From assembly GCF_002479495.1 (NCBI RefSeq), contig NZ_DLNQ01000010.1:205458-269457 (forward strand): a stretch of 64,000 nt of DNA. The letters are read 5' to 3'. A program made the translations under genes and the position numbers. Source of the stretch: Brevundimonas sp. UBA7506 (GTDB lineage: Bacteria > Pseudomonadota > Alphaproteobacteria > Caulobacterales > Caulobacteraceae). Below, one piece after another: positions 41,311-41,740 of the stretch (the stretch's first letter is position 1; each line of letters opens with the position of its first letter). The notes under the pieces are model-generated. The model was not told the DNA's origin. It searched no databases and saw nothing but the letters and a program-made list of their open reading frames with translations.

Positions 41311-41740
41311 CCTTCTCCCCTCGTGGGAGAAGGTGTCAGGCGGAGCCTGACGGATGAGGGGGCCTTTGCGCCACATGACGTCTGACCGCATCCAGAACCC
41401 GGTTCGGATTTGTCAGCACGGCTTCATTCGCGAAGCGCAGGACGGTGAAGCCGCGTTGTTTCAGGTCGGCGTCTCTCGCGGCGTCTTCTGCTTGGCGCAG
41501 CCGATGCACGCCCCCATCCATCTCGAGCACCAGCTTGAGTTCGTAGCAACAGAAGTCAGCAATCCAGGGTCCGATGCGCGTCTGGCGTCGGAACTTGTGG
41601 TCTTCAAAGCCGCGACCGCGCAGGATACGCCACATCGCCGCCTCGGTCGGCGTCATTCCCGCCCTCAATCGCCGCGTCTGGTTCACCGCCCCCTCATCCG
41701 GCTCGCTCCGCGAACCACCTTCTCCCACGAGGGGAGAAGG
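41311..41740. mobile_element. 430-bp unit with 23-bp inverted ends carrying DUF559 (R2)
   Basis: Both outermost ends are the same 23-bp hairpin in inverted orientation: CCTTCTCCC-CTCGT-GGGAGAAGG at 41311-41333 and its exact complement at 41718-41740. Inside each is a second stem with different sequence but intact pairing: GTCAGGC-GGA-GCCTGAC (41335-41351) on the left, GGTTCGC-GGA-GCGAGCC (complement of 41700-41716) on the right, then GGATGAGGGG. The unit lies between gap and pgk and holds only the DUF559 gene. No transposase or clear target duplication is visible; mobility is inferred. Confidence 0.6.
41336..41686 (-). CDS. DUF559 / Vsr-like endonuclease-fold protein
   Basis: A 116-residue protein if the GTG at 41686 is used; an ATG at 41728 would add 14 residues encoded by the right repeat. 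TRRLRAGMTPTEAAMWRILRGRGFEDHKFRRQTRIGPWIADF and LVLEMDGGVH are the DUF559 hallmarks; Asp44, Glu55 and Asp57 (GTG numbering) are candidate PD-(D/E)XK-type metal ligands. The last nine residues (QRPPHPSGSA region) are encoded inside the left repeat. It runs opposite to gap and pgk and is the only cargo of the inverted-repeat unit. Biochemical function of DUF559 is not settled. Confidence 0.82.
   Translation of the reverse strand: MNQTRRLRAGMTPTEAAMWRILRGRGFEDHKFRRQTRIGPWIADFCCYELKLVLEMDGGVHRLRQAEDAARDADLKQRGFTVLRFANEAVLTNPNRVLDAVRRHVAQRPPHPSGSA

Follow-up and report, generated by a model that had tools for sequence, protein, structure and literature searches.

A DUF559 nuclease-like gene between inverted hairpin arms in Brevundimonas: a candidate REPtron-like mobile unit

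Bacterial genomes commonly carry short palindromic repeats, among which those linked to RAYT are the kind whose enzyme is known. In the REPtron, as outlined in the available parts of two papers (PMC3733652; PMC3116915), a single gene stands between inverted short palindromes and encodes a repeat-specific enzyme, while gene-less doublets of such palindromes are known as REPINs. The CGTC-type palindromes of alphaproteobacteria are presented in the same part of PMC3733652 as dispersed and apparently devoid of a dedicated transposase, and their mover is left open there; the CIR repeats of Caulobacter each contain a GANTC methylation site, according to the available part of PMC2229807. Here we describe a 430-bp unit located in a 64,000-nt stretch of DNA (hereafter the window) from Brevundimonas sp. 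UBA7506 (contig NZ_DLNQ01000010.1, positions 205,458 to 269,457 of the forward strand). In the gap-pgk intergenic region of the window, two facing 53-nt arms enclose one intact DUF559 (Vsr-like) gene. This arrangement is best read as a system of the REPtron/REPIN type with a PD-(D/E)XK nuclease in the place of the transposase, the nuclease being the presumed mover.

The likeness to the REPtron/REPIN systems (RAYT, TnpA-REP) lies in a gene placed between inverted palindromes, in the presence of many gene-less inverted doublets and in an apparently repeat-specific enzyme. The enzyme itself is different, being DUF559 (PD-(D/E)XK-type) here and a Y1 HUH transposase in the REPtron, and so are the ends: no GTAG tag stands at the hairpin in the arms of the window and of a related genome, G133, and every arm is made of two hairpins and a GGATGAGGGG tail. 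The DUF559 unit works like a REPtron but is not a REPtron because its enzyme is unrelated, although it shares both architecture and population structure with REPtrons and REPINs. We consider it probable (about 0.6) that the 430-bp unit is a minimal autonomous mobile element and that its DUF559 protein is the dedicated partner of its hairpin family, driving the copying of anything that lies between two such ends.

The 430-bp unit and its gene

The outermost ends of the unit are one 23-nt hairpin in inverted orientation, as the original prediction had stated: the two copies are exact reverse complements across all 23 bases, the loop included, and a naive estimate puts the chance of such a match within 430 nt at about 6e-12. 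The inverted match reaches beyond the hairpins, the complete 53-nt arms being 87% complementary, and within the right arm both sides of the second stem differ from those of the left arm's second stem. Folded as single-stranded DNA, the left arm gives -16.2 kcal/mol (z -4.06) and the right arm -14.1 kcal/mol (z -3.17). No Rfam RNA family was found on the arms up to an E value of 1.

The predicted position between gap and pgk with one DUF559 gene also holds: gap ends at 41289, pgk starts at 41758, and the enclosed gene matches DUF559 in Pfam (PF04480) with an E value of 2.1e-33. Among the three open reading frames searched in the unit, DUF559 alone was above the cut-off and no transposase family (Y1 HUH PF01797 or DDE) was matched; the two overlapping antisense frames gave no Pfam family above the cut-off. 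According to the original prediction, the last codons of the gene lay in the left repeat and a possible ATG start in the right one. The stop codon (41336-41338) in fact lies outside the 23-nt hairpin, just inward of it and within the second hairpin of the left arm, and the right-arm ATG (within GGATGAGG) turned out to be out of frame, the in-frame candidate in the right hairpin being GTG 41728. The other in-frame candidates are GTG 41686, which is the likely start and corresponds to the start of the relative P0002 (MNQT), and ATG 41656, at which the relative P0001 starts.

The DUF559 protein of the unit is under selection, with a dN/dS (ratio of nonsynonymous to synonymous substitution rates) of 0.06-0.10 relative to the same-site copies in genomes G001, G002 and G133. 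Both profile and fold matches identify the protein as PD-(D/E)XK Vsr-like, and D58, E69, D71 and H75, which we take to be the catalytic residues of this fold, are invariant across 49 sequences. No Y1/HUH transposase was among the matches listed by VIA-align, which is no proof of absence. A defence system was rejected as an explanation (best PADLOC match with an E value of 0.015), and so was a phage origin, since just two phage records contained distant relatives.

Table 1. Positions of the unit, its gene and related arms in the window
Feature	Position	Strand	Description
Left arm	41311..41363	+	hairpin 41311-41333 (9-bp stem, 5-nt loop); second hairpin 41335-41351 (7-bp stem, 3-nt loop); unpaired tail 41352-41363, starts GGATGAGGGG
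Right arm	41688..41740	-	inverted copy of the left-arm anatomy: hairpin 41718-41740; second hairpin 41700-41716; tail 41688-41699
DUF559 (PF04480) nuclease-like gene	41336..41728	-	130-codon open frame, start uncertain
Short doublet (REPIN-like), same arms	42956..43121 (42956-43007 / 43071-43121)		between pgk and fba; about 63-67 nt inside
Solo arm, same family	48953..49006	+	
Solo arm, same family	63203..63256	+	diverged hairpin (CTTCGCCC)

The original prediction had spoken of other inverted pairs with the same ends in the window; there is one, between pgk and fba, and the rest of the arm family consists of two solo arms (Table 1). Repeats of a second family (GTGGAGGGG / CCCCTCCAC) stand at 44325-44432 and 62114-62192, with 87% identity across 54 nt; judged by eye, repeats of this kind also flank the DUF559 genes L026, L033 and L037, and a sub-threshold Rfam match to C4 overlies them. 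On the minus strand, 49374-49449 resembles the Guanidine-III riboswitch weakly (28.5 bits, under the family cut-off of 36).

Recurrence of the arms around DUF559 genes and their gene-less doublets

The recurrence of the arrangement was examined with a motif-free flank test, in which the score of the best local match between the 300 nt upstream of a gene and the reverse complement of the 300 nt downstream was compared with a threshold of 40. The Caulobacteraceae loci, which are the best profile matches and not a random draw, came from the 114 of 149 genomes searched that contain DUF559 and from 7 added genomes; 119 of the 120 loci were scored, one at a contig end being left out, and 96 of them passed the test versus 1 of 233 control windows at a distance of 900 nt. 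In Pseudomonadota, where 108 of 299 genomes contain DUF559, 40 of 70 loci passed versus none of 139 control windows, and in RidA, a control gene family of similar size, no locus out of 30 passed (top score 24). A first scan had yielded seven relatives, which are also part of the Caulobacteraceae count; each of them has inverted arms no farther than 300 nt away, and together they represent at least two genomic sites. For L007 the upstream arm, at a distance of 240 nt, belongs to a doublet. On plasmids, 5 of 16 loci taken from 43 matching records passed (this set was scored without control windows), namely those of Deinococcus proteolyticus, Novosphingobium, Sinorhizobium meliloti, Sphingomonas and Qipengyuania. 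The loci of E. coli, Photobacterium, Azospirillum, Methylobacterium, Shinella, cyanobacteria and N. gonorrhoeae and a second Deinococcus locus failed the test. DUF559 homologues are thus not rarely found beside such repeats, and the pairing of DUF559 with the arms is no chance association. At the loci L168 and L158, on two Deinococcus plasmids, related DUF559 genes stand at differing positions of the hpa gene cluster, one of them with 56-nt inverted flanks.

The ends of the unit also occur as short doublets that enclose no gene. In G133 (3.0 Mb) the exact tail CGGATGAGGGG is present 97 times, always on one 2.97-Mb contig, as 44 convergent pairs and 9 singles; 43 of the pairs are spaced by 52-81 nt and the remaining one, at 339 nt, is the DUF559 unit. 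G103 (63 places) has 19 convergent pairs spaced by 54-83 nt, and its sole gene-sized spacing is again the DUF559 unit, the far arm of which belongs to a doublet. For G053 (87 of 128 places listed), there are at least 31 convergent pairs spaced by 62-105 nt and two more spacings below 1 kb in other orientations. The doublet arms share the arm anatomy of the unit (20 stretches of G133, the unit among them), and both this and the identity of the ends fit the original view of the short doublets as internally deleted derivatives. In 30 parsed G133 arms the second stem has 9 distinct 5' sequences and keeps on average 4.83 of 5 pairs, versus 2.87 (maximum 3.8) with shuffled partners; the shuffle is lenient because related copies share a history of descent, yet the stems vary on both sides. 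This covariation points to the folded form as that which gets recognised. A consensus built from 40 arms of G133 and two of the window has no conserved 4-mer outside the hairpin, the GTAG tag included.

The relation of repeat to nuclease was followed in 92 flanked loci from 52 Caulobacteraceae genomes with an alignment-based test, which replaced a hand-written sorting of repeats that had left 26 of 131 loci unsorted. Repeat similarity correlates with DUF559 protein similarity (Spearman 0.470, versus at most 0.426 in 500 runs with repeats shuffled within each genome), also when pairs with homologous flanks are removed (0.456 versus at most 0.377 in 1000 runs). The repeat of the nearest relative was closer to a locus's own repeat than were the repeats of its paralogues in 45 cases, and not so in 16. 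The repeat family tracks the DUF559 lineage, within genomes too. The number of type-A hairpins ranges from 0 to 172 per genome in 149 genomes (0 for a reversed-pattern control), with medians of 8 in the 114 genomes with DUF559 and 0 in the 35 without it (Mann-Whitney p 2e-4, kinship uncorrected).

Against DUF559 as the cognate enzyme stand six genomes without DUF559 that have at least five type-A copies, G087 carrying 70 of them (drafts may be incomplete); 51 of the 114 genomes with DUF559 have fewer than five (the type-A family alone being counted). It could be that the hairpins are spread by a different enzyme, either a Y1 transposase of the RAYT type or one as yet unknown, and that the DUF559 gene was merely caught between two of them. 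Hairpin repeats of the RAYT kind are described in the available parts of PMC3733652 and PMC3116915, 24 of the 149 Caulobacteraceae genomes have a match to a Y1 transposase, and the repeat-rich G087 has no DUF559 match. However, of the 38 genomes with at least 20 type-A copies, 37 contain DUF559 and just 11 a Y1 (RAYT-type) match, and the single gene-sized spacing among 94 adjacent convergent pairs of the three genomes above (G053 in part) holds DUF559, as does the sole other gene-sized spacing at a known gene, that of the G103 unit. Given also the matching of repeat families to nuclease lineages and the absence of flanking arms from RidA, a caught passenger is an unlikely explanation.

Presence, absence and insertion of the units

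Units bounded by such arms are mobile because related genomes with and without the unit show an empty site. The position of the unit L027 (genome G002) was compared in 30 loci obtained from 71 searched genomes: the unit is present in 5 genomes (505-507 nt between the flank markers), whereas the site is filled by a different DUF559 unit in G030 (757 nt), by a doublet that belongs to another repeat family and has no gene in G155 (189 nt) and by 154 nt of unrelated sequence in L266. The other 22 genomes are empty (38-52 nt, marker placement being approximate in the distant ones). The flanks of the nearest empty sites, in G186, G207 and G133, are 92-96% identical to the query, and in G002 the unit and 4 nt have taken the place of about 8 nt of the spacer that separates one gene's start codon from the stop codon of the next gene. 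In Sinorhizobium (K101, C101) two genes that are roughly adjacent in Shinella have a unit with doublet ends between them (a distant comparison, 85% identity).

Empty sites, which the original prediction had proposed to look for, were thus found at the L027 position and in Rhizobiaceae, whereas gap-pgk was rejected as a clean empty site, this spot being rearranged in most of 30 relatives. Among the 30 Brevundimonas loci surveyed (L128-L157), 4 hold a unit of the window type; in another 4 there is a DUF559 unit of a different kind, which has other ends and lies on the opposite strand (assigned in G108 by a PF04480 match and in the other three by close sequence likeness). Doublets of a third family, without a gene, occupy 3 loci and a doublet of a fourth family occupies 1; 4 are short (9-114 nt), 13 contain other sequence and 1 is unreadable. 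The gap-pgk intergenic region is a hot spot that takes up DUF559 units, doublets of several families or unrelated sequence. The hairpin of the window's pgk-fba doublet was present in none of the 23 Brevundimonas loci with fba within reach (7 of 30 had no fba there), and therefore this doublet is, most simply, a recent insertion.

Within-genome copies were compared in five groups. In L042/L077, L071/L076 and L008/L017 the shared sequence stops, on either side, no more than about 20 nt from the outer hairpin end, and in L051/L080/L081 the left limit lies within about 13 nt and the right limit about 24 nt past the hairpin in one pair, N's cutting the other two. L056/L083 is a misfit: its shared sequence extends about 40 nt past the left hairpin and, at the other side, reaches only to the stop codon and not into the right arm. 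No unit out of 128 has abutting direct repeats of 4 nt or more, so that target-site duplication was rejected as a general feature; in this respect, and in the absence of a DDE transposase gene from its three open frames, the unit differs from a DDE insertion sequence. A looser test for direct repeats gave a few pairs above chance, the clearest being L122 (G118), with a direct repeat of 29-32 nt just outside both unit ends. Insertion into palindromes or terminators was rejected as a rule, flank complementarity being near that of shuffled pairs, and L008 resembles such an insertion.

A mechanism compatible with these observations may be outlined as follows. DUF559 would recognise the folded ends, that is, the hairpin, the second hairpin and the tail, and would nick or cut close to the outer foot of the first hairpin. 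Whatever two ends bound would then be copied, be it the nuclease gene itself, as in the unit, or a short spacer, as in the 43 doublets of G133, the gene-less doublets being moved by DUF559 in trans. Insertion would take place into intergenic spacers and, given the lack of a general target duplication, would probably be finished by host repair or replication.

Alternatively, DUF559 may act in a homing-like manner, cutting genomes that lack the unit at a target on or close to the insertion point, so that break repair copies the unit and the hairpins serve as terminators or as homology only. The catalytic domain of a homing endonuclease ranks second among the matches of the protein by VIA-align and third by Foldseek; GIY-YIG, a family with homing members, has a like architecture; and certain intergenic spots (gap-pgk and the L027 site) are shared by different DUF559 units. 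This explanation appears quite unlikely, as the sites of the units are many and unrelated, no shared target was seen at their outer ends, short doublets with ends identical in kind are commoner than units, and the covariation of the second stem speaks for recognition of a fold. Known homing endonucleases (I-Bth0305I, GIY-YIG) also differ from the DUF559 unit, which was seen in no intron or intein and has inverted hairpin bounds. It is very improbable that DUF559 is a Vsr-like host repair gene around which terminators or regulatory hairpins gather as they would around other small genes, even though hairpins could end transcription and Caulobacter VsrA, with its DUF559 domain, is needed for the SOS response in cells without a cytosine methyltransferase (PMC12907096, available part), because units are present or absent at one site among related genomes, several similar copies occupy differing sites within one genome, RidA genes have no such flanks and adjacent arms are nearly always convergent with their hairpins outward.

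GIY-YIG genes and the implications for short hairpin repeats

GIY-YIG genes were tested as a second case because some gene-less doublets resembled the CGTC-type family. In Caulobacteraceae (L277-L306), 17 of 30 GIY-YIG loci passed the flank test versus none of 58 control windows, and their arms are mostly CGTC-like by eye, for example CTCATCCCCGC...GCGGGGACCCAG or TCATCCCGG.... Subfamilies of the GIY-YIG protein seem to be paired with different repeat families. The CGTC-tagged repeats of alphaproteobacteria are, like the repeats of the window, dispersed palindromes without a known transposase; the latter, however, belong to another sequence family, and it is GIY-YIG genes that CGTC-like repeats flank. 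We hold at even odds the broader proposal that several unrelated small nucleases spread the short hairpin repeats of bacteria, each being bounded by its own repeat family, with DUF559 (PD-(D/E)XK) serving GGATGAGGGG and related families and GIY-YIG the CGTC type. Such nucleases would constitute a class of transposition without transposase that is not confined to one phylum and that depends on a structure-selective nuclease together with host repair or replication. In the open-access PubMed Central literature (titles and beginnings of abstracts), no report linking DUF559 or GIY-YIG to hairpin repeats was among the matches listed.

The comparison supplies candidate enzymes, DUF559 and GIY-YIG, for two further kinds of repeats, and DUF559 is a good candidate for the spreader of short hairpin repeats whose spreader was unknown. 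The 430-bp element is small enough for complete testing. If the proposal is true, many genes annotated as 'endonuclease domain-containing protein' would be explained as parts of mobile units. Known Vsr/DUF559 proteins (Caulobacter VsrA, N. gonorrhoeae NGO0050, PRK09767) have the domain and the fold in common with the protein of the unit, and VsrA is described as a repair-type host gene, a mobile unit not being described in the available part of that report (PMC12907096). The findings, which come from other DUF559 loci and not from vsrA itself, may also have a bearing on Caulobacter VsrA, as a DUF559 gene may in some cases be a mobile or domesticated element and not a plain repair gene.
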